A DNA stretch of 64,000 bases from Schaalia canis. Lineage in GTDB: Bacteria > Actinomycetota > Actinomycetes > Actinomycetales > Actinomycetaceae. The stretch is from the NCBI RefSeq assembly GCF_003858455.1, contig NZ_RQZF01000001.1:248001-312000 (forward strand), in the 5' to 3' direction. Of the stretch, positions 2,678 through 64,000 are shown one piece after another. Numbering within the stretch: the first letter of the stretch is position 1; each line of letters begins with the position of its first letter. Below the pieces are notes generated by a model that searched no databases, was not told the origin of the DNA, and saw only the letters and a list, made by a program, of their open reading frames with translations. Made by a program: the position numbers and the translations under genes.

Positions 2678-2867
2678 CAGGGCCTCCTTCAGGATGGGTG
2701 TGTGACCAAGCCTAGCGATTTTAAGGCCTCAGTGCGCTCAAACACCTTAGGACGTTGCGACATTGTCATGCGCCATTCTTCCCTTTGCACCGATCGCAAG
2801 GCCCTACTCCCGAATCGATTTTGAGTTTTCAGCGGCTAATGTGCTCGCCTTCCAGCCTTCAGAGCCC

Positions 2868-2873
2868 TAAAGT
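2868..2873 (+). promoter_or_regulatory. Candidate -10 hexamer of glgC
   Basis: TAAAGT ends 7 nt before the glgC ATG at 2881, and no Shine-Dalgarno lies between them. Transcription from this site would begin at or near the A of the ATG, giving a leaderless mRNA. The -35 region is not obvious. Confidence 0.4.
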
Positions 2874-2880
2874 GTGATCT

Positions 2881-4125
2881 ATGGCGAAGAATTCTGTGCT
2901 TGCGATTGTCCTAGCCGGCGGCGAAGGCAAGCGGCTCATGCCGCTCACCGCTGACCGTGCAAAGCCCGCTGTCCCCTTTGGAGGTCACTACCGAATCATT
3001 GATTTTGCCCTGTCAAATATTGTCAACTCGGGCTACATGAAAGTCGTTGTGTTGACCCAATACAAGTCGCACTCCCTGGACCGACATGTCACAAAGACGT
3101 GGTACATGTCGCCTCTGCTCGGTAACTTCGTCGCACCGGTTCCAGCCCAGCAACGCCGCGGGCCACACTGGTACTTGGGTTCAGCAGACGCGATCTACCA
3201 ATCCCTGAACATCGTCGAAGATGAATCGCCTGAATACATCGTCATCATCGGTGCTGACAACATTTACCGCATGGACTTTTCACAGATGGTCCAGCACCAC
3301 ATTGACTCTGGACTTCCCTGCACCGTGGCAGGTATTCGCCAGCCCATCGAACTTGCCCCAGCACTTGGCGTCATCGACAGCACGGACGGTGTCGTCGAGA
3401 ACTTTGTCGAAAAGCCTGCCTCGGCTGAGAACTTGGCCTTGCCCGATGATCCCAGCAAGGTACTGGCATCAATGGGAAACTATGTCTTCAGCACTGAAGC
3501 ATTGACGGCCGCGCTCAAGGAGGATGCGGCCAACCCTCATTCAAAGCACGATATGGGGGGCAATATTATCCCCTGGTTCGTCGAACGCGGCGAGTGCGGT
3601 GTCTACGATTTCCAGGACAATGACGTGCCCGGCTCCACCGATCGAGATCGCGATTACTGGCGTGACGTGGGTACCTTGGATGCCTACTACGACGCCAATA
3701 TGGATCTCATTTCTGTCCACCCGGTATTCAATCTGTACAACCGGAAGTGGCCGACGATGACGATGATTGACGGGGACCTGCCACCGGCAAAGTTTGTCTA
3801 TGGCTCGGAACACTCCCGAATGGGTCACGCTGTTGACAGCTTCGTATCCCCCGGAACGATTATCTCTGGCGGCGAGGTCTACCACTCGATCATTTCCCCA
3901 GGAACGAATATTCACTCGTGGGCGCAGGTGACGGACTCGGTGGTGATGCACGATGCGCGCATCGGACGCCATGCGATTGTTGCCAAGACGATCCTCGACA
4001 AGGGAGTTGTGGTTGAAGAGGGTGCCACCGTGGGTGTGGACCTTGAGTACGACCTCGCCCGCGGCTACACGGTGACCGAGTCCGGCATCACCGTCGTTCC
4101 TAAGGGAATGGTTGTGACAAAGTGA
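2881..4125 (+). CDS. glgC: Glucose-1-phosphate adenylyltransferase
   Basis: Makes ADP-glucose from ATP and glucose-1-phosphate, the committed step of glycogen synthesis. The 414-residue protein has the nucleotidyltransferase signature [20 protein letters not shown] at residues 11-30. Further family segments are the substrate motif [10 protein letters not shown], then VEKPAS and [18 protein letters not shown] left-handed beta-helix tail (about 300-400) ends the protein. Length is typical for the bacterial enzyme. It is divergent from glgA and overlaps serB by 4 bp (GTGA), so the two are likely cotranscribed. The family is usually allosterically regulated; effector specificity cannot be read here. 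Confidence 0.97.
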
Positions 4126-5009
4126 GCCAAGGCGTGAGCCTGGTTCTCGTTGTTCCTTCTCGCACGCAGTCCGGGGAGTTCCTCCGTCGTCTCGATAACG
4201 CGGGTGTTCTCCCCGGGCTTCGCCCCTACGTTTCCTACGAGGCCACCGCTGAGCTTCCCTCGGTCGATATTGTGTGTCTGCCGCAAGGAACAGACCGTGA
4301 TGCGCGCCTTGTCACTGAAGCCAACGCTTTCGGTGTTGATGTGCTCACCATCCCTGAGCCTGTGGCCACTGGAGGCGCGGGCCTTGTTGTCACCGATGTT
4401 GACTCAACGTTGATCGCCCAAGAGGTCATCGAAGAGATCGCTCACTATGCGGGTACCCGTGATGAGGTTGCCCGCATTACTGAACGTGCGATGAATGGCG
4501 AGCTTGATTTTGCTCAATCCCTTCGGGAACGAGTTGCTACGCTTGCCGGTGTTCCCGAACGCGTCTTTGCCGATGTCAGTCGCGCAATTACTGTCACGGT
4601 TGGGGCGCGCAACCTCGTTGATGCCGTGCATGCCAACGGCGGAGCTTTCGGGATTGTCTCAGGCGGTTTTGACGAGGTCGTGGCGCCTCTAGCACGGAGC
4701 CTTGGCATTGACCACTATTGTGCGAATCGTCTGGAAGTCAAAGACGGCATGCTCACTGGTCGGGTGCTGGGAGATATTGTCACCGCCACCACCAAGGTTG
4801 AGATGCTTCATGCGTGGGCAGCGGCCCATGAGGTGCCTATGGAACGAACAGTTGCTATCGGCGATGGCGCCAACGACATTCCCATGATGCGCACTGCAGG
4901 TGTAGGCGTCGCCTTTTGTGCGAAACCCGCTGTGCGCGAGCAGATCGACAATCACCTGGCGATTCCTCGCCTTGATGTTCTCAGCGTTCTCACTCAGCCA
5001 CTGCCGTAG
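4122..5009 (+). CDS. serB: Phosphoserine phosphatase SerB
   Basis: HAD-family phosphatase of 295 residues that releases serine from phosphoserine, the last step of serine synthesis. The catalytic DxDST motif is TDVDSTL with Asp92 as nucleophile and Asp94 as acid/base. Motif II is VSGGFDEV, and motif III/IV is [12 protein letters not shown]. The first 75 residues form a divergent ACT-like leader seen in longer SerB proteins. The GTG start overlaps the glgC stop in a GTGA junction, so translation is probably coupled. Why serine synthesis is linked to glycogen synthesis here is not clear; the overlap may only reflect compact gene packing. Confidence 0.95.
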
Positions 5010-5066
5010 GGTCTTTCAGCAAAGCCTGTCACATGCGCCTCACGACGATAGGTGACTGACCGCCTG

Positions 5067-5609
5067 TCATGCCTGTGGTGAACGTCCGTCCCACATCTCC
5101 CGCATGACACCATCCCAGCCATCACGCCACTGCGGCGCCAGAGTTGCAAGGCCTTTTGGTGTCAACATAGTTGTTTGCGACAGCTCCTCAAGATCTTCAA
5201 GATCCCACCAGCGTTGCTCATCGATAACTTCGCGCTCGAGCTCAGTCCACCCCTGATCGGATAACTCCGCCGCATCCGTGTGTACGACGAAGAAATGCTC
5301 GTCTTGGCGAGCAGTAACCGAGAGGAACTCAAACTGTGCCCGGCGGTAGAGCACTGGTCCGATCAGTTCCTCCGCACTCACGCGAATACCGGTCTCCTCG
5401 AAAAGTTCACGCACTGCACCATCACGGGGGTCCTCCCCCGGTTCAAGTCCCCCACCAATGGTGAACCACCATCGATGCGGCGGATCCTCTCGATCATGGC
5501 CGTGAACAAGAAGAATCTGTCCCTTGCCGTTAAACACCACCACGCGAGCGGCATTGCGATGCGGGTAACCATCCTCGTCTGGCACCCAATCTGGGCCCAA
5601 GCCCGACAT
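5067..5609 (-). CDS. Nudix hydrolase
   Basis: A 180-residue Nudix pyrophosphohydrolase. The Nudix box G-x5-E-x7-RE-x2-EE-x-GI spans residues 53-75 (starts GGLEPGEDP, ends REL FEETGI). It is preceded by RWWFTIGGG, where the loop leading into the box is expected. Members hydrolyse nucleoside diphosphates linked to another group; the substrate here is not deducible. Its ATG shares one base with the PrsW stop (TAATG), so it is the last gene of the thrS-HIT-PrsW-Nudix leftward cluster. In mycobacteria a Nudix gene (Rv2609c) also lies in the thrS/HIT neighbourhood. Confidence 0.92.
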   Translation of the reverse strand: MSGLGPDWVPDEDGYPHRNAARVVVFNGKGQILLVHGHDREDPPHRWWFTIGGGLEPGEDPRDGAVRELFEETGIRVSAEELIGPVLYRRAQFEFLSVTARQDEHFFVVHTDAAELSDQGWTELEREVIDEQRWWDLEDLEELSQTTMLTPKGLATLAPQWRDGWDGVMREMWDGRSPQA

Positions 5610-6784
5610 TAAATCCTCACTCCCGCTCGTTGAAGGAAAACCTGGCGGTGCTGCGTAATGTCCTGGAGAACCTGACGGTCATGCTCCACACGCAAAGGAT
5701 CCGGCCCTAAACGTCGCATAATCTCTTCATCCAACCCCAAGGTGGCGCAACCATTCAGGAACGCTGTCATGGAGTCATGGGAAGGCTTACCGTATTGTTT
5801 GGCCCAGGCCTGAGCGCTCTTACGACCACTGCGGGTCGTCACCATCTGCACCTCATTGGGCAGAAGCCATCCGGAAGCAACATAGGTTTGGAGGCCGCGT
5901 GCGATCACCTTCGCTTCAGTGGCAGAGGCGCTACGCAAGAAAAGCATCCATACGACGAACATGGGCAGATGGAAGAAGAGGTAGAGGGCAACCCAGGTAC
6001 CCGGAGAAGACAAGACTGCGGTGGCATTCCAGGCGGCATGGATGGCAACAGCAGCAAGCCACCCCAAAGGAATGAGCAAGAAGCCCGTTGAGCGCTGCGC
6101 CATTCGTACAGCCGTCCACCCCGCTGCCAGACCAATCATGGAGGTTGCCATGGGATGAAGGAAGGGGCTCATCACGCCGCGCATGACAAAGAGTATGCCA
6201 ACGCCCCCAATGCCATCAGACATGGCGCCCTGCATGAAGTACATGATGTTTTCGATGAAAGCGAAAGCTGCGCCTGCAACTGCCGCGTAGTACACGCCAT
6301 CCAGGATGGAGTTGAGGCGGTGGCGGCGCTTCCACAGAATCAGCACAACCCCCAAGCCTTTGAGGGATTCTTCAACAATCGGGGCAGCAACAATGACAGC
6401 CAAGGTTTCAGCCAGGGCTGAATCCCCGGTCGCTAGCTCAACAACGAGGGCAAAAGCCGTATTGATAATACTGGAGAAAAACGTGGCAATGCCGCCACCC
6501 CAGATTGCCAAGATCGCCGTCGTTCCCCATGGCTCACGCTCCCAACGGTCAACCGCAGCAAGCACCTGCATAACGACAAGGAAAGGCAAGAAGGCAGCCA
6601 CAGCAAGGAGGGCCGTTGAAATCACGCCACCTTCAAGGGACATGAACCATAACAGTGCCAACATTGCCAGCAGGCCAAAGACCATGACGAGCACTTCAAA
6701 GACACCGGCACGTCGGCGTGGCAGTTGATGCGACCAGTCGGGCGGTTGCACTCCGCTGTACACCGAGATTGTCGGGTGGTTCAC
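5609..6784 (-). CDS. PrsW-family intramembrane metalloprotease
   Basis: Polytopic membrane protein of 391 residues with about eight hydrophobic segments from residue 30 to 290. The PrsW/Abi (CAAX-protease-like) motifs are in order: EESLKG (EExxK) in the middle, FAFIENIMYF (FxxxEN), then HPMATSMIG and IHAAWNA carrying the predicted metal-binding histidines. PrsW cleaves anti-sigma factors in Bacillus; the substrate here is unknown. I chose the GTG at 6784. It overlaps the HIT stop in a GTGA junction and has AGGAG eight bases upstream. The in-frame ATG at 6808 lies deep inside the HIT gene. The C-terminal 100 residues are soluble and likely cytoplasmic. The gene occupies a place where other actinobacteria have phosphatidylinositol genes. 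Confidence 0.88.
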   Translation of the reverse strand: MNHPTISVYSGVQPPDWSHQLPRRRAGVFEVLVMVFGLLAMLALLWFMSLEGGVISTALLAVAAFLPFLVVMQVLAAVDRWEREPWGTTAILAIWGGGIATFFSSIINTAFALVVELATGDSALAETLAVIVAAPIVEESLKGLGVVLILWKRRHRLNSILDGVYYAAVAGAAFAFIENIMYFMQGAMSDGIGGVGILFVMRGVMSPFLHPMATSMIGLAAGWTAVRMAQRSTGFLLIPLGWLAAVAIHAAWNATAVLSSPGTWVALYLFFHLPMFVVWMLFLRSASATEAKVIARGLQTYVASGWLLPNEVQMVTTRSGRKSAQAWAKQYGKPSHDSMTAFLNGCATLGLDEEIMRRLGPDPLRVEHDRQVLQDITQHRQVFLQRAGVRI

Positions 6785-7383
6785 TCTTGTTCTCCTGTAC
6801 GGGTCCATGCCTGCGCCAGACGGTGCCGGGCGTCTTCAAGTAATTCAGGAATAGCTTTGGTTTGAGCGATGATCGGCAAGAAATTCGCGTCCCCCGCCCA
6901 TCTGGGCACGATGTGTTGATGGAGGTGCGCGGCAATCCCCGCCCCAGCAACTGCCCCCTGATTCATCCCCAGGTTGAAACCGTGGGGTTGAGCGACTGCG
7001 CGAGTCACCCGCATCGCTTGAGCAGTCAGTTCTGCCAACTCAACGCGTTCATCCGCGCTGAGCTCCGTATAGTCACTGACATGACGATAGGGACAGACGA
7101 GCATGTGCCCTGAGTTGTAGGGGAAAAGATTCATCACCACGAAGCAATGCGTTCCACGGTGGACGATCAGCCCGTCCTCGTCACTGCGCTGCGGAGCAGA
7201 ACAGAAGGGACATTCTTGCTCTGTACTGTCCACCGGCTTAGATTCACCACGGATATAGGCCATGCGGTAGGGCGTCCAAAAACGAGAAAAGCCATCAGGG
7301 ACGCCCGTAAGAGTACGCGCGTCCTCAGAACTTGCATCCTGAATGTGAGAAGCGTCAGACGGTGCGCCCTCCGCGTGCGTCAT
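6781..7383 (-). CDS. HIT-family protein, probable Ap4A phosphorylase
   Basis: A 200-residue HIT-domain nucleotide hydrolase/transferase. The active-site triad motif is HLHQHIVP at residues 153-160 (His153, His155, His157). A CPFC pair at 58-61 and His/Cys residues near 73-80 may bind zinc. It closely follows the pattern of mycobacterial Rv2613c, an Ap4A phosphorylase, including the SGHMLVCPYRHV block. The first 30 residues are a disordered extension. Position directly after thrS is conserved in Actinobacteria and makes sense because aminoacyl-tRNA synthetases produce Ap4A as a side product. The start ATG has GAAGGAG upstream. Assignment as phosphorylase rather than hydrolase is by resemblance. 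Confidence 0.9.
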   Translation of the reverse strand: MTHAEGAPSDASHIQDASSEDARTLTGVPDGFSRFWTPYRMAYIRGESKPVDSTEQECPFCSAPQRSDEDGLIVHRGTHCFVVMNLFPYNSGHMLVCPYRHVSDYTELSADERVELAELTAQAMRVTRAVAQPHGFNLGMNQGAVAGAGIAAHLHQHIVPRWAGDANFLPIIAQTKAIPELLEDARHRLAQAWTRTGEQE

Positions 7384-7422
7384 GATGGTTCTCCTTCGCT
7401 GGACAGTCCCTTTCAGACCTCA

Positions 7423-7447
7423 GGGAAGCGCCGCTGGGGCGCTTCCC
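7423..7447 (-). terminator. Hairpin between thrS and the HIT gene
   Basis: Perfect 10-bp stem (7423-7432 with 7438-7447) and a 5-nt loop, 8 bp after the thrS stop. It has no U-tract, so it may be a weak terminator, an attenuator or an mRNA-processing hairpin. Confidence 0.4.
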
Positions 7448-7454
7448 CACGACC

Positions 7455-9464
7455 TTACTCCTCAGAGGCGGTCTTCGGCAGGCCTTCAACCTCGTCAGAG
7501 TTCACACGCTGTTCAATATGGGCCACGATCGCAGCCACAGCGTCAGCAACCGGCACACCATTAGTCTGCGAGCCGTCACGGAAACGGAAGGAAACGGCAC
7601 CAGCCTCAGCGTCCTCACCGCCGGCAATCAGGGTGAAAGGAACCTTTTCCTTCGAGGCATTACGGATCTTCTTACCGAAACGATCGTCAGAGAGGTCAAC
7701 CTCGACGCGCACCCCCTGGGCACGCAACTGAGCGGCCACCTCGTTAACGTAGTCGTAGAAAGCCTCAGCCACGGGCACGAGTTTGACCTGCACGGGTGAG
7801 AGCCATGCGGGGAACGCGCCCGCGTAGTGCTCAATGAGCACGCCAATGAAGCGCTCAATAGAACCAAACTTCGCCGAGTGGATCATCACCGGCTGCTGGT
7901 GGGTACCATCGGGGGCGGTGTACTCCAAGCCAAATCGTGCAGGCTGGTTGAAGTCATATTGGATGGTCGACATCTGCCAGGTGCGACCAATTGCGTCCTT
8001 CGCCTGGATGGAGATCTTCGGCCCGTAGAAAGCCGCGCCACCCGGGTCAGGCACGCAGGTCAGGCCGGTTTCCTCAGCGCATTGCTCAAGGATTCGGGTT
8101 GCTTCCTCCCACTGCTCGTCCGTGCCGATGAACTTATCCTTCTTCTTGCCGTCGGTGTCGCGGGTGGACAGTTCCAGGTAGAAGTCATCCATACCGAAAT
8201 CGCGCAGCAGAGTGAGGATAAAGTTCAGCAGGTGCTTGATTTCATCGGCAGCCTGTTCTGGCATGACATAGGAGTGCGAATCATCCTGGGTGATGGAGCG
8301 CACGCGGGTCAGCCCCTGGAGCACGCCCGACTTCTCATTGCGGTAGACCGTGCCAAACTCGAACAGACGCAGAGGCAGCTCACGGTAGGAGCGTCCGCGA
8401 CTGCGGAAGATGAGGTTGTGCATCGGACAGTTCATGGCCTTGAGGTAGTAGAGCTGGCCATCATCATCCATCGGAGGGAACATGCCGTCGGCGTAGTAGG
8501 GCAGGTGACCCGAGGTGTGGAAGAGGTCTTCCTTAGAAATATGGGGGGTGCCCACGTAGAGGAAGCCGTTGTCAATGTGTGCCTGACGGACGTAGTCCTC
8601 CATGACGCGCTTGAGGATGCCGCCCTTGGGGTGGAAGACGGGCAGGCCCGCGCCCAGTTCCTCAGGGAAAGAAAAAAGATCCAGTTCGGCACCGAGACGT
8701 CGGTGGTCGCGACGTTCTGCCTCTTTAATCCGCTCTTGGTAGGCCTGGAGGTCCTCCTTCGAGGCCCACGCGGTGCCGTAGATGCGTTGGAGCGGGTCGT
8801 TGGCCTGATCGCCCTTCCAGTATGCCGAGGACGCCTTCGTCAGACAGAAGCCCTGACCGATCAGACGCGTGTTGGGCAGGTGGGGGCCGCGGCACAGGTC
8901 AGTCCAAATCACCTGATCGTCGCGCCCGACATTGTCGTACATGGTGAGTTCGCCGGCACCCACCTCAACGGAGGCCCCATCGGCACCTGATCCCTTCGTC
9001 TGAACGAGCTCAAGCTTGTAGGGCTGGTCAGCGAGTTCAACAGCGGCCTCGTCTTCGGTGATGACGCGACGCTGGAAGCGTTGGCCTTCTTTGACAATAC
9101 GCTTCATGCGCTTTTCCAGGTCACGCATGAGTTCAGGAGTAACGGCGTCGATATTGCCAAAGTCGTAGTAGAAACCGTCGGTAATGAAAGGACCAATACC
9201 AAGATTTACGTCAGGGAACACCTGTTGAACGGCCTGAGCGAGGACATGCGTGGTGGAGTGACGCAGGATATCCAGGCCTGCGGGGGAATCAATGGTGATG
9301 GCCTCGACGGTGGCGCCTGCGGGAAGTTCGCTGTAGAGGTCACGAGGCTCGCCGTTGATATGGAGGGCGATAACCTCCTTGCGGTCGGCGTACCAGGTGG
9401 TGCCTGTTGTGCCTGCCTCGATGCTGTGGTTGACACCGTCGATAATGACGTCAATAGAAGGCAC
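7455..9464 (-). CDS. thrS: Threonine--tRNA ligase
   Basis: Class II aminoacyl-tRNA synthetase charging tRNA-Thr, 669 residues, with the full bacterial architecture. A TGS domain lies at the N-terminus (about 1-60). The SAD editing domain follows with [10 protein letters not shown]. The catalytic core shows the zinc ligand block KAMNCPMHN, motif 2 ([11 protein letters not shown]) and [12 protein letters not shown]. The C-terminal anticodon-binding domain ends with [13 protein letters not shown] place the start at the GTG at 9464, beginning [10 protein letters not shown], because GAGGAG lies six bases upstream. The upstream in-frame ATG at 9506 would add 14 residues with no family support. It is the first gene of a leftward cluster with HIT, PrsW and Nudix. 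Confidence 0.97.
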
Positions 9465-50014: not shown

Positions 50015-50083
50015 GGGCCTGAAATAGGGGCAAAGCACATCACCACGCCGCCACTATTGAGGGCCAGCCGTGACGACGTCAAG

Positions 50084-50089
50084 TAAAAT
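50084..50089 (+). promoter_or_regulatory. Candidate -10 hexamer of the PASTA kinase gene
   Basis: TAAAAT ends 7 nt before the GTG at 50097, and there is no Shine-Dalgarno. It excludes the upstream in-frame GTG at 50070, which would lie inside the promoter. Confidence 0.5.
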
Positions 50090-50096
50090 CCAGTGC

Positions 50097-52205
50097 GTGA
50101 GTGACATGCACCCTCGTACATCTTTAGGCGCCGCATCTTCGGATGGCGCCTCCATCGACGGTGCCTCCTTCAACGGCGCCACTGAGCCTCCCGTTCCATC
50201 GCCTGCGCCCACCGACGCTTTGCTGGGCATCGTCGTGGATGATCGCTACCAGATCAGCCAGCGCCTCGCGCGGGGAGGTATGGCCTCCGTCTATGTTGCT
50301 CACGATATGCGACTGGACCGTCCTGTTGCACTCAAAGTCATGCATCAGCATCTGGCCGAAGATCCCCTGTTTCTTCAGCGTTTCAGCCGCGAGGCTCGCT
50401 CTGCGGCGCGAATTACTCACCCCGGGGTGGTCTCTGTCTCTGACCAGGGCAGCGTCGACAATCGTCCCTACCTCGTGATGGAGCTTATTGAAGGCCCCAC
50501 CATTCGTGAGCTTCTTCGACAGGAAGGGTCATTTACCCTCGCCCAATCACTTGACTATTGCGAGAACATCCTTCACGCTTTGCGAGCAGCTCACCGCATC
50601 GGGGTGATTCACCGCGACATTAAACCCGAAAACGTCCTTGTTCCCGCTGAAGGACCCGCCAGAGTGACGGACTTCGGTTTAGCACGAGCCGTCTCTGAGG
50701 CCACCATGTCGGTCACCGGAAATATGCTCGGAACCGTAACCTACATGGCACCCGAAGTCGCGACAAAAGGCTCGACTGATGAGCGCACGGATCTTTACTC
50801 CGTGGGAATCATGCTCTACGAGATGCTCACGGGTGTTGTCCCCTGGCATGGAGATAACGCTCTTCATATTGCCTATTCCCACGTCCATGACGATGTTCCA
50901 GCCCCCTCGGATGAAGAACCGTGGATTCCTCGCGAGATTGATGATTTTGTCGCAGCACTGTGCGCACGCGATCCAGCAGAACGCCTCTCTTCAGCTGACG
51001 ATGCCCTCGATATGCTCGGTCGTGTCAACGATTCCATCCCCGCCGAGCTGCGGCATCAGCGGGCTGCAGTGACTGCCACCGCATTGCGACCGCAAGACTC
51101 TGACCACACTGCCGTCCTTTCCCCTCCCACGCAGACGGCCCTTCTTCCCGCTATTAGCGCCCCCTCCGCATCGCCCTCGCCAGCCGCACCGTCATTAAAG
51201 CCACTTACTCAGGCACCCACCAACGCTGAGCGGCCTTCAGAGACTCCATCGACGGCCCTGTCAGTCACGGACTCTTCAACGTCCGCTGACGGAGCACCAA
51301 CAGTGGCCGTAAAGAAACGCCGGACACGTCTTATCCTGGTGATCGCCCTCATTTTCTCCCTCATTTCCGCTGGCGGCGGATGGTGGTGGTGGAGCGAATA
51401 CGGACCCGGTTCCTACCTTGCTCTTCCTGTCACAGACGGCCGTGCAGCCACTGATGTACGCACCGATCTGGAAGCTTTGGGAGTACAGATCAAAGAAGAG
51501 GAAGCCTTCTCCGATGATGTCGTCCCCGGCGTTGTTATATCCTCCCTTCCTGCTTCTGCGTCCTCAGTGCACAAGTACGCCACGGTCACTCTTGTCATTT
51601 CAAAAGGGCCGGATCTGCGTCTTGTCCCCAATGTGGTGAATAAACCTCTCGAAGAAGCTCGCGCTGCCCTGGAAGAAGCAGGTTTGACAGTGGGCGAACA
51701 GCAGGAGGATTGGTCAGAGGAAGTGCCAGCACAAGCAGTGATCTCCCAATCTGAAGCGCCTGAGACAAAGCTGAAAGTCGGATCAGCGGTGAATCTCGTG
51801 CTGTCAAAGGGGCGCGAACCCCGCGCCACTCCTGACTTGGCAAACCGTACGCTTGATGAAGCAAAAGCTGCCCTTGATGAGCTTGCCTTGACCGTTGAGG
51901 TGCGAGAAGCCCACTCCGATTCGGTAGAAAAGGGACGTGTGATCTCACAAGAACCTGCAGCTCAAACACAGCTCTACCGCGGCGATACTGTGATCGTCAC
52001 AATCTCTTTGGGCCCTGAAATGGTGCAGGTTCCTAACGTGTCTGGCAAGAGTGAATCAGAGGCCGTCCAGATCCTCAAGGACGCTGGTTTCGCCGTTGAC
52101 GTTCGCCGCCAACTCGGCGGCGTCTTCCGCACCGCACACTCAACCGATCCAGCCAGTGGGGCTTCGGTCCCTAAGGGGTCCACCATCGTTCTCATCGTAT
52201 TCTGA
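50097..52205 (+). CDS. pknL: Membrane Ser/Thr protein kinase with PASTA domains (PknL-like)
   Basis: A 702-residue kinase for cell-wall and growth signalling. Kinase domain: glycine loop LARGGMASVYVA, Lys80 in VALKVMHQ, HRDIKPENVL catalytic loop, DFGLA, and MAPEVATKGSTDERTDLYSVGIMLYEML. A Pro/Ser/Ala-rich juxtamembrane part follows, then a membrane helix RLILVIALIFSLISAGGGW. Four extracellular PASTA repeats end the protein (units PVTDGRAATDV, VPNVVNKPLEEA, TPDLANRTLDEA, VPNVSGKSESEA), the kind that bind muropeptides or lipid II. The neighbour order idsA-like, Rv2175c-like, kinase, aroG matches mycobacterial pknL. Start chosen at the GTG at 50097, 7 nt after TAAAAT. Confidence 0.93.
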   Translation: MSDMHPRTSLGAASSDGASIDGASFNGATEPPVPSPAPTDALLGIVVDDRYQISQRLARGGMASVYVAHDMRLDRPVALKVMHQHLAEDPLFLQRFSREARSAARITHPGVVSVSDQGSVDNRPYLVMELIEGPTIRELLRQEGSFTLAQSLDYCENILHALRAAHRIGVIHRDIKPENVLVPAEGPARVTDFGLARAVSEATMSVTGNMLGTVTYMAPEVATKGSTDERTDLYSVGIMLYEMLTGVVPWHGDNALHIAYSHVHDDVPAPSDEEPWIPREIDDFVAALCARDPAERLSSADDALDMLGRVNDSIPAELRHQRAAVTATALRPQDSDHTAVLSPPTQTALLPAISAPSASPSPAAPSLKPLTQAPTNAERPSETPSTALSVTDSSTSADGAPTVAVKKRRTRLILVIALIFSLISAGGGWWWWSEYGPGSYLALPVTDGRAATDVRTDLEALGVQIKEEEAFSDDVVPGVVISSLPASASSVHKYATVTLVISKGPDLRLVPNVVNKPLEEARAALEEAGLTVGEQQEDWSEEVPAQAVISQSEAPETKLKVGSAVNLVLSKGREPRATPDLANRTLDEAKAALDELALTVEVREAHSDSVEKGRVISQEPAAQTQLYRGDTVIVTISLGPEMVQVPNVSGKSESEAVQILKDAGFAVDVRRQLGGVFRTAHSTDPASGASVPKGSTIVLIVF

Positions 52206-56169: not shown

Positions 56170-58884
56170 CTACTCTGGTGTGGCATTGCCCAAGATGCGT
56201 ATCAGTTCTTCCGCGCGTGATTTTGCTGCGGACTCTTCCCTGGGAACATCAGCCAGTAACTTAAGCGCTTCTTGAGCATCCGAGAGTGCTTCCCGAGGTT
56301 CGCCGTCCTTGACAAGCAGATTTGCCCGAATCACCAGCGCGGTTGCCCGCCCATGAGCATCACCCAGTTCTATGAAGCGGCTCATTGCGTCGTTGATAAA
56401 GGTCTTTGCCAGGCTTATCCGGGCACAGTTGGCATGGATTTCAGCCATCTGGGAATGCCAGTGCGCATCTTGGAGCTGAGGGTCAAGCGAGGTAAAACGC
56501 AGATAATCCTCTGAAAGGGTCAGAGTTCGCAGCTCATTCATCAGGGTTTCGGCACGCTCGTGATCGTCATGAGAAATCGGATCCGGCTGCCAGCTTATGC
56601 CTTTCGCCAAAGCATGCAGGCATCGCGCTAAAGAAGATGCGCTTCTGGTTGCCTTGGATGCACAAGCTTGGCGTTCCTCTTCTTCTGTTGCTGCGTGATA
56701 GTGCTCCGCATCCGTGACATATGAGTGGCGGGCAATTTCACATGCTTGGGAGAGGACATCGAAAGCCTGCGCAAAATTATCAACATTAAGGAAACACATG
56801 GCGGCATCATGCATAAGATTCGCTGCATTCACCTCATGGCCGTGACGTGAATACCGTTCAGCAGTGTGCAGGTAGTGCCGGGCTGCAATTTCGTCTTGAC
56901 CGATAAGGGCGTGAGCCCGCGCACTGTAAAAGTGCAGCATCGAGGTGACGCCGTCCAGATACGCGTGACGCTCCACAGCGTCAAGCCCGTTTTGAGCAAC
57001 TTCAGCAGCGTAGTAAACATCACCTCGCCGCAGAAGGAGGGCACTGAGGTCAGATGCGGCTTGCGCCATTTCTCCTGGCAGACCAACCAGGGCAGCAAGA
57101 TTAGCCCTTTCTCGGTTGAGCGCAATGGCCTCGTCGTCGGCACCTTGATAGCGGAGCGCATCGGCCCACACTCGCAATCCACGCAGGCGTAAGCCTAGAG
57201 GCTCAATACTGGGAGTGGAGAATGCCTCGTGAACACAGGATATGGCCCGCTCACAGTCATCGGCCGCCATTGCCACCTGAGCGGCGTCGAGTTGGCTGAA
57301 TGCGGGATCAGTGGTCTCCATTGCATGCAGAGCGATGGTGTATCCCGGCACAAAAGCCTCACCCGCCAGATAGCGGAGCCAGCGCCAGGCAACTACCACG
57401 TCTTCTGGGAGGTCATTCTCCATTGTGAGATCTGCATAGCGCGGATCCGACCACATGCGTTCAAGCGCTGTATAAGCCCATATCGTCGGGACACCCACAC
57501 CAGCATTGGCGCACTCACGAAGGAGGTCGTGGAAACTCATTGTCTCCCACGCGCCGTGAAGAGGCAGGGGAACAAAGGAATGAGAAGAGTTGCCGTCACT
57601 GTCCGAAGTTGCGACAGAGTGCGGCTCGGACGCAACGGGGGCTTGCCGGTCTTTGCTGTTCTCCTCGTCAAGGAGGAATGTCAGGCTGGACTGATAGTCC
57701 CCCAGGCCGGTGACGTCCTGAATGGGTCCGTTATCTGGAAGAGCGGCGAGCGGCTGAGGATGGAAGGCGCGTTCGAGGCGTTGATGTTCCCTGCCTGGAG
57801 CTCGATTACCGGGTCGAGCATCGAACTGAGCGGCAATCTTTGTGGCAAGGTGGCGCATCCATTGAGCAGTTTCGGCAATCGTCGGGTCAGTGAGTTCTTC
57901 CGCCTCAACCCATTTCAGGTGTTTGCCGGGTAGGGTCACTGGCAAAACCCGCTCATGCTTCTGCTCTGGAACAGCATCACAAACCAGTGCCGCCGCCGCA
58001 GCAAAATCGCGCACTGCGCTTGGAGTCGAAGCCTCGATCATCCATGGTAGATGCCGACAGAGTATCCGCAGTGCCCGCTCAAGGCGCTGCGGTCTACCGG
58101 CCTGCGCGGAAAGGGTCAGGTACCTCAGGTGGTAGTGCAGATAGTTAAAGTAACGCGCACTGGCCTGGTGTTTCCTGTACGAACGCACATGTGCTGGCCA
58201 TGCCTGAGCATCATCACCGCATCTGAGCCAGGGCTCCAACATCTCGCTGAGCAGCGCCTCCGGTTGGGAGCTACAAAGACGCCCCTCCCCCGCCAAGCCT
58301 TCCTCACCGGCCTGAACTGCCTCTTGCCACAGGCCTTTGTCACTGTAGTGACCCACTATTTGTCCTGGCGCACACCCTTGACAATCGGTCAGGTCTGAAT
58401 GTTCAGCGTTGATCCACAAGTCAAAAGCGCGGGCGGCAGCTTCTTCTTCCCCCATGGCAGTGTGGAGTTGGTACAGGCGGTAGTAGTAGGCGCGCATCGA
58501 ATCACCTACGCCTGAGTAGTGCTCGTGCATCTGTTCAAGGATGGACTCCCATTGGGACACCGGCACCGTTGGTACATGCGCCACAGCAATGAGCACAAAT
58601 TTGTAGAACCACCCGAAACGATGAATGTGGGTTTCTGTGAATAGATCTGGGCGCTCTCGGCGCATTCGATCCAGCCACATGAAGGGAGCAATAACTCGGG
58701 TGATCTCGCCCGCACTTTGATAGGAGGAACACAGCTCGGTGTAAGCGTCAACAGCCAGCCCGAGGCTCCCCTCCTCTTCAGCGAGTGTCGCCGCCTGCGC
58801 CCACAGGGCTGCACGGCTCTTTCCCGCGGGCATCATCCACGCGCGGTTCATCAATTCTTTCAACTCGCGAGAGCGATCATGCAT
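56170..58884 (-). CDS. Large TPR-like protein, second paralogue
   Basis: A 904-residue soluble protein of unknown function, rich in helices that resemble tetratricopeptide repeats (repeated A-x3-A-L-x-A and Y-x-A-E-V-A-Q-N-G-L units over about 600-850). An N-terminal module (LWAQAATLAEEEGSLGLAVDAY) is shared with the paralogue at 58983-61775. Conserved Cys168 and Cys171 (DCQGCAPG) and Cys204 (LCSSQPEALL) may bind a metal. A central RVLPVTLPG block and VPLPLHGAWETM follow. Start chosen at the third ATG: GGAGG lies 5 bases before it, and this numbering aligns the cysteines with those of the paralogue. Last gene of the HSP90-TPR operon. No enzyme motif was seen. Confidence 0.8.
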   Translation of the reverse strand: MHDRSRELKELMNRAWMMPAGKSRAALWAQAATLAEEEGSLGLAVDAYTELCSSYQSAGEITRVIAPFMWLDRMRRERPDLFTETHIHRFGWFYKFVLIAVAHVPTVPVSQWESILEQMHEHYSGVGDSMRAYYYRLYQLHTAMGEEEAAARAFDLWINAEHSDLTDCQGCAPGQIVGHYSDKGLWQEAVQAGEEGLAGEGRLCSSQPEALLSEMLEPWLRCGDDAQAWPAHVRSYRKHQASARYFNYLHYHLRYLTLSAQAGRPQRLERALRILCRHLPWMIEASTPSAVRDFAAAAALVCDAVPEQKHERVLPVTLPGKHLKWVEAEELTDPTIAETAQWMRHLATKIAAQFDARPGNRAPGREHQRLERAFHPQPLAALPDNGPIQDVTGLGDYQSSLTFLLDEENSKDRQAPVASEPHSVATSDSDGNSSHSFVPLPLHGAWETMSFHDLLRECANAGVGVPTIWAYTALERMWSDPRYADLTMENDLPEDVVVAWRWLRYLAGEAFVPGYTIALHAMETTDPAFSQLDAAQVAMAADDCERAISCVHEAFSTPSIEPLGLRLRGLRVWADALRYQGADDEAIALNRERANLAALVGLPGEMAQAASDLSALLLRRGDVYYAAEVAQNGLDAVERHAYLDGVTSMLHFYSARAHALIGQDEIAARHYLHTAERYSRHGHEVNAANLMHDAAMCFLNVDNFAQAFDVLSQACEIARHSYVTDAEHYHAATEEEERQACASKATRSASSLARCLHALAKGISWQPDPISHDDHERAETLMNELRTLTLSEDYLRFTSLDPQLQDAHWHSQMAEIHANCARISLAKTFINDAMSRFIELGDAHGRATALVIRANLLVKDGEPREALSDAQEALKLLADVPREESAAKSRAEELIRILGNATPE

Positions 58885-58982
58885 CATGTCCTCCATAGGC
58901 GCGTGCCTGTAAGAGTCGAGCGAAGGGCGTGACGAGCGAGAACGCTCGTTTAGATTCCTCCTCCAGTGGGCACAAAACCTTG

Positions 58983-61775
58983 CTAGTTTTCATCCGCCTT
59001 ATCAAGCTCTCGCAGAAGCTTGCGGGCATCACGCAAGGCTTCCTCACCCCTATAGGAGGGGTCTGCGAAGAGGTCGATAACTGCCTGCGCTGCTTCGCGC
59101 GCGTTCTCCGGCTGCTCAAGATGATCGTAGAGAGCGGCAAGACGCTGCAGGGATCGTCCTTGAGCACGAGTATCACCCAGATCTTTAAATGCCTGAATAC
59201 TTGCCAGCATGTAATCCACAGCCAAGGTCCTGCGGTACGCATTGGCCATCATGGTACTCATGCGACGATGCCAGTCCGCGTCACGCCATGCGACGGTCTT
59301 GGGCATGTACTCGTCGAATGTCGGATTGGTGACGAAGGAGCGTAACTCGTTCATGAGTTCTTCCATGTGGGAAAAATCCTCATCGGAAATATTGCCCGGC
59401 TGCCACACGAGGATATGCGCGTAATCCAAAAGGCAGGACAGCAACTGCTCAATGGCGTACTTGTAGTTGTCAACTAGTTCTTCTTCAGCAGAGTTCTTCT
59501 CTCTATCTGCTCCGCCTACACTCTCAGCGTCGCCTTCATTCTCTGGTTCAGCCAGCGTCTCATCACCCAGATGCGTGGCTCGGTAGGCGGCTAAGGCCTC
59601 GTCACATTCGGCGAAGTAACGGCGGCTCGCCTTCAACGCAAGGTCTCGAGCAACGATTGCTTGAGAGTACTCGTGACCTTCAGCGTAGCCATCTGCAGCT
59701 TCACCATAGGCACCCGCTGCACCGCGCCAGATCTCCTGGCGTTCGAGGATCATTCCCGCAGCGAAATGACGGTTTGCTGCCGCATCTTTACTGAACTGCG
59801 CGTGAGCCAGGGCAGCCAAACGGTTGAGTTCCACTGCGGGGCCGTACAGGTGCGGGTAGTGCTCAAAAATATCCAGTCCACTTTGAGCGACCTCCGTTGC
59901 TTCGGTATAGCGCCGGAGCTTATGCAGAGTGTTCGTCAAAAGAATGGACACTCCGGCCTGGTCAACCCTGAGACCAAGAAGCGCATTGAGGTTGATGAGT
60001 TCGCGCAGACTGTCAACACTCTCCGCGAGGTAGCCAGAAGCTATAGCCGCCATCGAAAGATTAGTCAGGGCTTCCAAACGGACACCGATAGGCTCCACCG
60101 ACGGGGTGCGCATAGCCTCGTCAGCAAGTTGAGCCGCCTCCATGTACTTCCTCTGATCCAGCAGGTGATCTGATTCCTGCACAAGCTGGTAGGCACGGTC
60201 ATCACAAACTCGCGGATAGTCTGGGAACTCCTCATCTATCTGTTTGACAACGTTAACGTACTCAACGGTGGCATCCCAGTACTGTTGCAAGCGACCTTCG
60301 CCCTGTGGACGATAAGAAGGGTCAATCAGCGTAGGATCCCGGAAGGCGAGCTCGCGAGCCATTGCCACATAGATCGTCGGCACATAGTCGCCATACTCGG
60401 CGGCAGCCTCAAGAAGCTCCATGAAGCCCATCGACTGCCATGGTCCGTTCAGAGGCAGGGGAACCAAGGGAGGTTCATCCTCATCCTCATCGTTAGCCCC
60501 ATGCGGTGCTACCTGGCCAGCGGTAGCACCGACAGCAGAGGTCTGGGTGGTGTCATCAGCAACAGCGAAAGTCGACATCATGGTGTAATCGCCCAGGCCC
60601 GAGGCGTCTTCGACAACTCCTTCTTGCGTCAGTGGCGCAACGGGCTCAGGATCCATCAGGCGCTCCACGCGTGCCCTCATGACACCGGGGTGAGGATGGC
60701 CTGGACGCGCGTCAAAGGCATCCGCCATAGCAAGCGCTAGATCACGCATCCAGTCGCGCGCCTGAGACAAAGTTGGGTTCACCAGTGTTGGGCGAGTGGT
60801 CCACTGAAGTTCGTCGCCTGGCAGGGTCACGGGCAGAACGCGATCATCATGATCGGACTCGAAAGAATCGAGCAGAACGAAGGCCTGGATAGCTGTGTCC
60901 ATAAGCACCTGAGGTGTTTCAGCTTCCTTCCACCACGGCATGTGGCGCAGGAGGATCTTCACACCACGTTCGAGGCGTTGAGGACGACCCGCACGGCCAG
61001 ACAGTGCGAGGTAGCGCAGGTGCTGCTCATGGTATTCAAAGTAGCGGGAAGCCTGCTGATAGCGGCGGTAGCCTCGGATATGGGCAGCCCACGCTTCGTC
61101 ATCACGCCCGCTACGCAACAGCGTTTCTAGAAGGTCAGTAAGCAGCGCTTCAGGCTGGGCACCACAGTGGCGCTTGTCGGAGTTGAGCGTCTCATCGCCA
61201 ACGCTCAATGCTTCGGCCCATTCGCTACGTTCAGCGTGATAGCGGACGCGGTGGCCTGGATCGCAGTGGCTGCAATCGGACAGTGGGGAGGACTCGGCGG
61301 CCAACCAACGCTGATAAGCGGCCTCTGATTCCTCCATCATGCCCATGTCACGGTAGATCTGGAAGGCCCGCATGTTGTAGCTATGCAGGGAATCTCCCAA
61401 GCTGCGGTGGAAACGCTCTGTTTCTTCCAGCAGTGACATGCATTGTTCAAAAGGAACGGTTGGTACGGAACGCACGGCTGAGAGTGCAAATTTGTAGTCC
61501 GCTGCCAAAGACTCCACAAGATCGTCATTAAAAAGATCTGGGCGTTGCTTGTACATGCGTTCGAGCCACATGAAAGGCGCAATACAGCGGGTGAGCTCTC
61601 CGCCCATCATGTAGGCGGTGGCCAACTCGTCATAACAGACAACAGCTTTTTCGAGGTTTCCCTGTTCTTCGGCCAAGGTTGCGGCCTGCGCCCACAGGGC
61701 GGAACAGGCTTTGCCCCACTGGGTGGCGTCAGCGCGGGACATCAAATCTTCGAGATCGTCAAGACCTTCAGACAC
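58983..61775 (-). CDS. Large TPR-like protein, first paralogue
   Basis: A 930-residue paralogue with the same module order: LWAQAATLAEEQGNLEKAV at the N-terminus, Cys168 and Cys171 (DCSHCDPGH) and Cys204 (HCGAQPEALL), RVLPVTLPGDELQW near 320, VPLPLNGPWQSMGF, then helical repeats such as ATEVAQSGLDIFEHYP. Identical cysteine positions in the two copies argue for a structural metal site. The GTG at 61775 has AAGGAG six bases upstream; an ATG at 61793 precedes the ribosome-binding site. It follows the HSP90-like gene by 71 bp in the same direction. TPR proteins are known HSP90 partners, but the link here is by context only. Confidence 0.8.
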   Translation of the reverse strand: MSEGLDDLEDLMSRADATQWGKACSALWAQAATLAEEQGNLEKAVVCYDELATAYMMGGELTRCIAPFMWLERMYKQRPDLFNDDLVESLAADYKFALSAVRSVPTVPFEQCMSLLEETERFHRSLGDSLHSYNMRAFQIYRDMGMMEESEAAYQRWLAAESSPLSDCSHCDPGHRVRYHAERSEWAEALSVGDETLNSDKRHCGAQPEALLTDLLETLLRSGRDDEAWAAHIRGYRRYQQASRYFEYHEQHLRYLALSGRAGRPQRLERGVKILLRHMPWWKEAETPQVLMDTAIQAFVLLDSFESDHDDRVLPVTLPGDELQWTTRPTLVNPTLSQARDWMRDLALAMADAFDARPGHPHPGVMRARVERLMDPEPVAPLTQEGVVEDASGLGDYTMMSTFAVADDTTQTSAVGATAGQVAPHGANDEDEDEPPLVPLPLNGPWQSMGFMELLEAAAEYGDYVPTIYVAMARELAFRDPTLIDPSYRPQGEGRLQQYWDATVEYVNVVKQIDEEFPDYPRVCDDRAYQLVQESDHLLDQRKYMEAAQLADEAMRTPSVEPIGVRLEALTNLSMAAIASGYLAESVDSLRELINLNALLGLRVDQAGVSILLTNTLHKLRRYTEATEVAQSGLDIFEHYPHLYGPAVELNRLAALAHAQFSKDAAANRHFAAGMILERQEIWRGAAGAYGEAADGYAEGHEYSQAIVARDLALKASRRYFAECDEALAAYRATHLGDETLAEPENEGDAESVGGADREKNSAEEELVDNYKYAIEQLLSCLLDYAHILVWQPGNISDEDFSHMEELMNELRSFVTNPTFDEYMPKTVAWRDADWHRRMSTMMANAYRRTLAVDYMLASIQAFKDLGDTRAQGRSLQRLAALYDHLEQPENAREAAQAVIDLFADPSYRGEEALRDARKLLRELDKADEN

Positions 61776-61846
61776 TCTTTCTCCTTCATTCATGTACTGT
61801 GACGGCCATTGTCACTCAACTTCACATATCAATAAGTGGTGGGGTT

Positions 61847-63688
61847 TTAGCCCGCCGAAGGCATACCTGGATCTGACTGCGACCATTGCAAAGAATGGGC
61901 AATCAACGAGGTGAATACTGAGGTACTCCATGAGCGCACCTGAGTGTTCATAGGGTGGCGCCCGGCAAGGAGCGCCTGAACATAGAAACCGCGAACGGCA
62001 CTCTCCATCACAATGGTGTTGTCGATGCATCGCGCAAGCTCGCTGACCACCGTGGCTTTGGCATTGAAGACGAGGCGTGCTTTCGTTTCTCGAGGCTTCT
62101 TCACCGAGGCGGCTCCGAAGGCTTCCAAAAGCCCGTCAAAGGCGCCGGTGGCATTACGCGCTTCGCGCTGTTCGATAAGGCGCCCGGCCAGATCAGACTC
62201 GGGCAGGAAGAGGACGGGCATGGTGGCCGGCTCGAAAGAGCGTACCTCGACAGAGACGTCCTGGCCTTTCAGTGCCCCTTCCGCAGCGTCGATCAAAGGT
62301 AGAAGGGCGGCCTCTTCAGCAATGTCGAGGGGTTCGAGGGCTCCCAGAACCTCCATCGGGTCAAGTTCGCTAATGCGTGCTTCAGGCCGATCCAATGCCA
62401 GTTGACCGAGCAGCTCCTCATCGAAGGCGAAGCCAGCGTTGAGGATGCACAGACCATTAGCGGCCGCCACCGGCTCAAGAGTGCGGAATTCGTTGTCAGT
62501 GCGGGTGAAGCGGATCGCCCCGTGTTGACTCATCACCTCATCGAGCGTCATAACGCCCATTGATGTCTCGTAGTACAGAGTCGAGGCAACGAGTTCACGC
62601 GTCGGGCCGTCAGTAATCGCCAGAGCCTTGAGGCCGTTGACATGAAGTGCGGTGAATTCACGGAAACGACGAGGCGACTCGTGCGCTAGTCGTGTCAACC
62701 ATTGGCGGATCTGATCGCCAAGGTACTGGCGGGTATGTTCAAGGAGCTCGTCGTCGAAGAGCTGCTCACGCGATGCTGTGGGCTTGAGGTGTTCGGTATC
62801 GACAACGACTCTCACGAAGTAAGCCCAGTCGGGAAGGAAGTCCGTGGCCTTCTGGGTAAGCAACATACGACGTAGGTAAACATGATGGCGCAGGCTTTGG
62901 CCGGGGGAAGCGCCATTTGCCAACACATAGGCGACGCCTTTGACACCGGAGGTGGGAACCTCAACCTCGAAGGACTCAAAGGGCATGAAGCCAAAGTTTT
63001 CCGCACACCAACGATCACGCTGCATGTGGGTCATTTCCCACGGGGCTGCGGGCAGGGTCAGGGGCTCGCCTGGCTCCTGCGAGTCAGCTCGCTCGATGGT
63101 GACATTCACCGGCAAGTACTGGCCGTAGTAGCGGATCAACTCCCGTAGCACGCCATACTCGAAGAGTCGTTCACCGGGAAGGGCATCGAGAACAACGGTA
63201 GTGCCTGCATCGCCCAGTTCTGTGGGGATTTCTGAAGGGTCAGCAACGCTAACACTCCATGTGCCGTTCTCTCGTCCGACCCAGCGGACAACAGCAGATC
63301 CTGGGTGACGAGCTGAGCGAGAGTAGACGAGAATCGTGGGTGACACCATGAAGCACGACAGCAGGCCGATTCCGAATTGGCCCAGGTAGTCAGAACGGGC
63401 AAGGCCAAGTTCATCGCGCTTTGATGATGCCCCAATGGTAGCCAAAAGGTTGCGTGCCTCGTCGAGCGTCAGCCCTACACCGGAGTCAGTAATACGAAGC
63501 TGATTCCCGGTGGTGATGAAACGGATATGTGAGGGGGCTTCTGGATCAATCTCGTGACGAGCAGTGATGGCATCCAGGCCGTTTTGGAGGAGTTCTCGGA
63601 CAAAGACTCGAGGCCCTGAATAGAGGTTGCGAGAGAGAATCTCAACAACGCCGCCAAGGTCAACCTGAAAGTTCTCGTTCTGTGTCAT
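61847..63688 (-). CDS. HSP90-family protein (HtpG-like, noncanonical)
   Basis: A 613-residue protein with the N-terminal HSP90/GHKL ATPase: ELLQNGLDAITAR (Glu32 and Asn36), ITDSGVGLT (Asp68), and the lid/loop GQFGIGLLSCFM (103-114), then GTTVVLDALPGE. The middle domain keeps VVVDTEHLKPTASREQLFDD, the HSP90 client/catalytic loop region. The C-terminus is less conserved and ends in GMPSAG with no EEVD-like tail, so it cannot recruit TPR partners by the eukaryotic tail mode. Its sequence differs from standard HtpG. No Shine-Dalgarno is evident before the ATG. First gene of an operon with two large TPR-like proteins. Confidence 0.88.
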   Translation of the reverse strand: MTQNENFQVDLGGVVEILSRNLYSGPRVFVRELLQNGLDAITARHEIDPEAPSHIRFITTGNQLRITDSGVGLTLDEARNLLATIGASSKRDELGLARSDYLGQFGIGLLSCFMVSPTILVYSRSARHPGSAVVRWVGRENGTWSVSVADPSEIPTELGDAGTTVVLDALPGERLFEYGVLRELIRYYGQYLPVNVTIERADSQEPGEPLTLPAAPWEMTHMQRDRWCAENFGFMPFESFEVEVPTSGVKGVAYVLANGASPGQSLRHHVYLRRMLLTQKATDFLPDWAYFVRVVVDTEHLKPTASREQLFDDELLEHTRQYLGDQIRQWLTRLAHESPRRFREFTALHVNGLKALAITDGPTRELVASTLYYETSMGVMTLDEVMSQHGAIRFTRTDNEFRTLEPVAAANGLCILNAGFAFDEELLGQLALDRPEARISELDPMEVLGALEPLDIAEEAALLPLIDAAEGALKGQDVSVEVRSFEPATMPVLFLPESDLAGRLIEQREARNATGAFDGLLEAFGAASVKKPRETKARLVFNAKATVVSELARCIDNTIVMESAVRGFYVQALLAGRHPMNTQVRSWSTSVFTSLIAHSLQWSQSDPGMPSAG

Positions 63689-63940: not shown

Positions 63941-64000
63941 TCAGTCGTCGCTTTCTGAACGACGCTTTTCCTCAATACCGAGGTCCTTGACGTAGGCGTC
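63941..64000 (-). CDS. C-terminal end of an unidentified leftward gene
   Basis: The last 19 codons and a TGA of a gene that enters from beyond the window: the tail reads DAYVKDLGIEEKRRSESDD. Charged and hydrophilic, too short to identify. The reading frame is supported only by the stop being followed by a hairpin and by the absence of other coding signals; a different frame is possible. Confidence 0.4.
   Translation of the reverse strand, partial: DAYVKDLGIEEKRRSESDD

Follow-up and report, generated by a model that had tools for sequence, protein, structure and literature searches.

In the 64,000-nucleotide stretch of Schaalia canis DNA analysed here (the window), and nearly wherever this HSP90 occurs across the class, the gene for an HSP90-type ATPase lies beside a gene for a large TPR protein. 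We consider it probable, on comparative sequence grounds, that the TPR protein is a dedicated adaptor, whose N-terminal domain would work with HSP90 while its exchangeable arm would recruit clients.

The HSP90 gene and its cluster

The HSP90 gene (positions 61847 to 63688 of the window, minus strand) is an open frame of 613 residues, whose product belongs to family NF010683 ('HSP90 family protein', PRK14083). It is followed by TPR-B (58983 to 61793, minus strand; 936 residues from the first ATG) and by its paralogue TPR-C (56170 to 58896, minus strand; 908 residues from the first ATG), the two being 37% identical (515 bits). The preliminary description of this DNA had reported an HSP90 and two related proteins of more than 900 residues lying in one direction, and all three frames are indeed open, on the minus strand, at these coordinates. 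If the first possible ATGs of TPR-B and TPR-C are used, the intergenic gaps amount to 53 and 86 bp. As we read the sequence, an SD-like AAGGAG or GGAGG precedes a GTG at 61775 for TPR-B and an ATG at 58884 for TPR-C, and the gaps of 71 and 98 bp given previously are consistent with these SD-supported starts.

The window edge cuts through a YbjN gene. In the window genome's own locus, fetched past the window end (L006), the cluster was found to run on with a pair of YbjN genes and one more TPR paralogue, all on the minus strand: Y2 (3' end at 63941 to 64000 of the window, whole gene at L006 8942-9415), Y1 (L006 9422-9916) and TPR-A (L006 10007-12787; 926 residues, 43% identical to TPR-B). The order of transcription is TPR-A, Y1, Y2, HSP90, TPR-B, TPR-C. 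The two YbjN genes matched PF10722 with 51.0 and 28.8 bits, the cut-off being 22. Y2 and HSP90 are 252 nt apart; the gap in L051 is similar, and in several relatives the second YbjN ORF almost abuts HSP90. A scan for promoters and terminators returned fewer sites than the mean of the shuffled sequences. Directly upstream of the cluster lies a large ORF (L006 13109-15640, minus strand) with a C-terminus that by eye is of the sortase type; its homologue in G001, 76% identical, matches Abhydrolase_1. Outside the cluster, an ORF at 50070 to 52205 of the window (plus strand) resembles by eye a PASTA-repeat serine/threonine protein kinase.

The window HSP90 matched NF010683 with 601.5 bits (cut-off, 455) along residues 3 to 602 and is a full-length family member, while its score against the HtpG model NF003555, 143 bits, falls far under the cut-off of 371. 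No second HSP90 was seen in the window genome, where the sole other match to NF010683 scored 18 bits. Residues E32, N36, D39, D68, G70, G72, Q104-G108 and R307 were invariant among 48 sequences (alignment A3); E32, N36, D68, G70, G72 and Q104-G108 we take to be the ATP site, and R307 presumably is the middle-domain arginine. The HSP90 profile aligned to TRAP1 almost end to end (3-564 of 591) and to HtpG in two blocks, of which HtpG 295-609, where the C-terminal dimerisation region was examined, aligned weakly. Mean identity by region was 58, 49 and 41%, the C-terminal third being the least conserved. By sequence, this HSP90 appears to be an intact N-M-C ATPase. The absence of an EEVD tail, already remarked upon for the window protein, turned out to be general, since an EEVD-like C-terminal tail was found in 0 of 84 distinct loci.

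Pairing, distribution and genomic setting

Among 58 genomes of relatives, the same 10 carried both an NF010683 match over the cut-off and TPR-B homologues, and within the genus the cluster is patchy, being present in 10 of 35 genomes including the window genome. In a phylum sample of 396 genomes, NF010683 was matched over its cut-off in 12 and the N-terminal part of the TPR protein (TPR-N) in 13 among the matches listed, with 11 genomes common to both. A further 41 genomes held sub-cut-off HSP90 matches only, and one of these (G258) had TPR-N among the matches listed. The full-length TPR profile matched 110 of the 396 genomes, among the matches listed and with two candidates scored per genome; because these included generic TPR matches, the test was redone in the class with a profile of the N-terminal domain (A4), built from the named loci and the window.

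The class sample (335 genomes) was drawn independently of the named loci and shares genomes with the phylum sample. Three control genomes matched HSP90 at E 1e-60, two of them over the cut-off, so that at least one belongs to a phylum other than Actinomycetota. HSP90 was present in 40 genomes and TPR-N in 42; 39 had both, 1 had HSP90 alone and 3 had TPR-N alone (Fisher, 3e-46, a figure that ignores relatedness). The co-occurrence check proposed at the outset thus came out in favour of homologues found together, not apart, in line with the dedicated HSP90/TPR machine put forward in the preliminary description. At 44 of 45 HSP90 places, a count from which a fragment of a split HSP90 (G706, 319 bits) was left out, TPR-N lay directly 3' on the same strand, the ends of the two matches being separated by -8 to 95 nt. 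In the 5 genomes with two HSP90 copies a TPR gene lay beside each copy. Conversely, 6 of 50 TPR-N places did not lie immediately 3' of an HSP90, two of them being the extra copies of the window genome. The exceptions were HSP90 without TPR in G378 and L049, TPR-N without HSP90 in G225, G258 and G700, and a second TPR-N copy in G606. Co-occurrence of this kind argues for functional dependence, not for contact.

The named loci were the best 80 of 507 confirmed candidates; together with those of the genus, and after six loci identical to named ones had been dropped, they gave the 84 distinct loci, on which the TPR HMM was trained. The TPR gene adjoins HSP90 in 80 of the 84. In the other four, it follows 947 nt on (L033), 1336 nt on (L090), as a fragment 682 nt on (L121) or not at all (L049). 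In 53 of the 80 adjacent loci, an ATG or GTG in the TPR frame makes the two genes overlap by 4 or 1 nt at the HSP90 stop, and a start codon in any frame was found at offset -4 in 58 of the 84 loci, the next commonest of the 63 offsets reaching 17.

In the HSP90 tree, made by a quick method, the window copy and that of G001 joined Corynebacterium, a Propionibacteriaceae MAG and further Actinomycetaceae in a clade of 11 rows, while the remaining 8 copies of the genus grouped with Actinomyces; both this tree and that of TPR-N drew long-branch warnings. The TPR-N tree (64 rows; about 30 loci, mostly Actinomadura, and partial matches were left out) repeated the split of the genus, and the position of L046 differed between the two trees. 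Around the cluster runs a backbone of genes for an M20 peptidase, a kinase-like, an ErpA-like, an FKBP and a response-regulator-like protein, then plsC, PFK and DAHP synthase, all named by eye except plsC, which was assigned by Pfam (Acyltransferase). G030, G003, G004 and G016 retain this backbone, and the 13 kb fetched from them contained nothing that matched the cluster genes; for G015 the plsC side alone was found. The cluster's slot measures about 0.7 kb in G016 and is filled by other genes in G030 and G003. Since these relatives keep the backbone without the cluster, the window cluster has either been inserted into a variable slot or replaced what stood there, and it looks as though it was acquired horizontally in the window genome, with two lineages in the genus. 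Elsewhere the setting looks vertical: 27 of the 84 loci, all from Thermomonosporaceae, have a gene of the malate dehydrogenase type upstream on the same strand (within 400 nt in 17 of them), and folD-type and DUF3017 genes are common to 23 or 24 loci.

We considered phages and plasmids as a source and rejected both. Of 48 candidate stretches in the viral_contigs collection, 3 proved to be relatives of HSP90, each through a short local match. The phages collection gave 32 matching records, of which 2 covered at least 80% of the HSP90 query, namely, an unannotated 1.6-kb 'Listeria phage' record and MT837560. Four plasmid records had partial TPR matches, none covering 80%. A full HSP90 and a TPR gene were seen at 1915-6488 of MT837560.1 (L150), a 6.6-kb unverified 'Bacteriophage sp.' faecal contig, which may be bacterial DNA.

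The TPR family and the YbjN genes

The TPR proteins, about 790 to 1080 residues long, consist of two parts, a conserved region corresponding to residues 1 to 370 of TPR-B and a variable C-terminal arm; mean pairwise identity was 34% over residues 1-370, 20% over 371-560 and 22% over 561-936. The N-terminal domain is encoded at 60684 to 61793 in TPR-B and at 57727 to 58896 in TPR-C, both on the minus strand. TPR-B matched TPR_8 with 35.1 bits (cut-off, 25.7), TPR-C matched TPR_12 with 20.8 bits, under the cut-off of 30.1, and TPR_12 matches (E up to 0.01) were obtained in 33 of 50 family members. Apart from such TPR-type or marginal matches, Pfam returned nothing on the 50 members; NCBIfam gave no matches on TPR-B and TPR-C, and we found no family of either collection covering the N-terminal domain. 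The C-terminal half of the profile matched solved TPR structures, including that of the Streptomyces regulator AfsR, with the best stretches beginning at profile position 418 or later (best 60 of 159 PDB chains). A short TPR_8 match at residues 137-162 of TPR-B hints that the N-terminal domain is perhaps partly repeat-like itself.

Residues P111, G151, C174, C177, C210, A234 and R363 were invariant among 50 sequences (alignment A2). In a wider set of 81 copies, C174, C177 and C210 were each kept in 78, H238 in 78, H258 in 79 and R363 in all 81. The resulting pattern, SDC-x2-C ... C-x2-QP ... H ... H, points to a putative metal or redox site; in TPR-B this site would comprise C174-x2-C177, C210, H238 and H258 (61020 to 61274, minus strand); TPR-C carries the same C-x2-C...C...H signature. 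The same three copies lacked all three cysteines, namely, TPR-A of the window genome and the upstream copies of L058 and L060, and a joint loss is what would be expected of one shared site. No copy without the cysteines lies directly 3' of HSP90. These upstream paralogues (L006 10007-12787, minus strand; L058 4651-8781; L060 4798-8607) are possibly a natural variant without the putative site.

In 21 of the 84 loci, the fetched flanks contained YbjN genes on the strand of HSP90, mostly in pairs, as counted with a purpose-built HMM trained on these same loci. Sorted with the HSP90 tree, they occurred in 18 of 24 rows of Actinomycetaceae, Corynebacteriaceae and Propionibacteriaceae, with tandem pairs in 16 of these 18 loci, in 3 of 6 Micromonosporaceae and in 0 of 54 others. 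The matches in L033 and L090 were weak, the L033 ORF scoring 13.5 bits, under the Pfam cut-off of 22. Since YbjN was not found in the fetched flanks of 63 of the 84 loci, it is not obligatory at the HSP90 locus. L058 and L060 have a YbjN-YbjN-TPR arrangement, after which come a second, weaker YbjN-YbjN pair, HSP90 and TPR.

In L104 and L114, the ORF after HSP90 joins TPR-N to a YbjN domain at the C-terminus (66 and 68 bits) and has no TPR repeats, and in L091 the TPR-N and YbjN parts are split over two frames. Fusions of the same kind were found in one ORF of G258 (C1:2666031-2667146; 61 bits) and in G606 (C4:898456-899559; 38 bits by the purpose-built HMM). A separate YbjN gene lies upstream of each fusion in L104, L114, G258 and G606. 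These fusions indicate that YbjN is tied to the TPR-N domain and that the repeat arm is exchangeable. Near the G258 and G606 fusions no HSP90 match was obtained within the fetched 20 kb, and the two are possibly an HSP90-free branch of the system. No YbjN was found near the orphan TPR-N of G225 and G700.

Several loci departed from these arrangements. In a Corynebacterium locus (L048 1171-7319), YbjN matches extend over 8 consecutive ORFs beside HSP90 and two TPR genes, one of them only partly matched, an unusual expansion. At L034 2569-4320, near the divergent copy of G014, there is an ORF with a Fic/DOC domain together with a 343-residue protein whose YbjN match is just over the cut-off. In L027, an EamA-type transporter gene by Pfam (7350-8321) lies between the upstream TPR gene and HSP90; L028 to L030 have similar-looking ORFs at this position, and no YbjN was found at L027 or at L028 to L030.

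A candidate adaptor machine, its rivals and known systems

In the machine that we propose, the TPR protein would be the dedicated partner of HSP90, and its N-terminal domain, bearing the C-x2-C...C...H signature, would be the part working with HSP90, probably as a zinc-stabilised helical domain. The variable TPR arm, or the YbjN domain replacing it, would catch particular clients, with separate paired YbjN proteins assisting capture in some lineages, and the clients would be presented to HSP90 for ATP-driven maturation. One HSP90 could serve several adaptors, such as the three TPR paralogues of the window genome. What the sequences establish is the pairing and co-occurrence of the genes, the overlap of starts with stops, the conservation of the domain and the YbjN pairs and fusions; from these we infer a physical complex, a docking domain, metal binding and client recruitment, the metal being suggested by conservation. 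Docking through a tail of the eukaryotic EEVD type was rejected, since the lack of any such tail in the 84 loci does not fit that mode.

The main rival to an adaptor machine is that the TPR protein is an obligate client, that is, a fast-evolving repeat protein folded or active only with its own HSP90, whose function, in regulation or scaffolding, would be the output of the system. The stronger conservation of HSP90 (58, 49 and 41%) than of the TPR protein (34, 20 and 22%) is in line with this, as is the match of the TPR C-terminal half to the regulator AfsR among other TPR structures. However, the N-terminal domain persists where YbjN has replaced the repeat arm, which would be odd if it were the repeats that need folding, and TPR-N is present without HSP90 in G225, G258 and G700; we regard an obligate client as unlikely. 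Mere co-regulation, in which HSP90 and the TPR protein serve one pathway, for instance in stress, and do not work together directly, draws on the fact that co-expression can be selected in any operon and that the contact between the two proteins is only one that we infer. Against it stand the near-absolute pairing across families, including both copies in two-copy genomes, and the 4-nt overlaps between HSP90 and TPR genes; overlaps of this size are more usual for subunits made in a fixed ratio. We find this explanation highly improbable.

If HSP90 and the TPR protein kept an effector in check, forming a conflict or anti-phage system, this could account for the patchy presence of the cluster in the genus (10 of 35 genomes, the window genome included), for its apparently horizontal origin in two lineages of the genus and for its variable slot in a conserved backbone, and in L034 an ORF with a Fic domain is located some 4.6 kb from HSP90. 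Yet PADLOC, run on HSP90, TPR-B and TPR-C, gave weak matches, all of them for HSP90 (best 36 bits, TmtA, residues 10-124); TPR-B and TPR-C had none. Conserved neighbours formed 23 groups, two of which were HSP90 and TPR themselves; ten representatives were scanned with Pfam, one without a match, and no effector was recognised among them (for group 15, which lies downstream in 16 loci, Pfam gave no match). The malate dehydrogenase-type neighbour of the Thermomonosporaceae (27 of 84 loci) moreover looks like a vertical housekeeping setting. With neither PADLOC support nor an effector in the ten groups, we rejected defence, which seems to us very unlikely. The adaptor machine is the reading that we retain.

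According to a passage of one paper (PMC7926864), no co-chaperones that act in protein remodelling have been identified for bacterial Hsp90. A TPR partner rarely found apart from its HSP90, and in some lineages accompanied by or fused to YbjN, makes that statement testable in common laboratory actinomycetes. Part of another paper (PMC1525184) describes how S. coelicolor and certain other bacteria possess two HTPG genes, which fall into different groups, and E. coli HtpG is treated in PMC4428384, here in excerpt. A term search of the main text of a genome-scale study of bacterial Hsp90 co-evolution (PMC3708813) returned no TPR, tetratricopeptide, YbjN, operon or actinobacteri. Our literature search, covering open-licence papers, found among the papers listed no account of an NF010683 HSP90 with TPR or YbjN proteins. 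We hold it to be an evenly balanced proposition that this is the first dedicated bacterial HSP90 co-chaperone system, with a probably metal-bearing adaptor domain outside Pfam encoded beside this HSP90 nearly wherever it occurs across the class, with exchangeable arms in the form of a TPR superhelix or YbjN, and with paired YbjN proteins in some lineages, making it an EEVD-independent parallel to eukaryotic HSP90/TPR. It would offer a new HSP90 partnership to set against the eukaryotic one, and the YbjN family would gain a concrete setting.

With HtpG, the NF010683 HSP90 shares its HSP90 architecture and ATP-site motifs. The window protein is a full member of NF010683 (PRK14083), a model whose name states neither partner nor function. 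As with the eukaryotic Hsp90 co-chaperones Hop/Sti1, Cpr6 and the FKBPs, a TPR protein is partnered with HSP90; unlike them, the system described here has no EEVD in 84 loci, TPR proteins of about 790 to 1080 residues and a different conserved N-terminal domain. YbjN has a dimer fold like that of type III secretion chaperones and is thought to work via protein-protein contacts, as set out in part of PMC5398634. The neighbours and the fused domain found here match PF10722, as do YbjN/AmyR, but they stand next to HSP90 and TPR, either paired in tandem or fused, while in the AmyR paper HSP90 appears in a reference title only. Finally, CnoX (YbbN), as described in part of PMC10490939, joins an N-terminal CXXC domain to a C-terminal TPR region, and the proteins studied here likewise have a cysteine-bearing N-terminal domain ahead of a TPR arm; unlike CnoX, the 50 family members had no thioredoxin family among their Pfam matches, and their N-terminal domain carries a third conserved cysteine.
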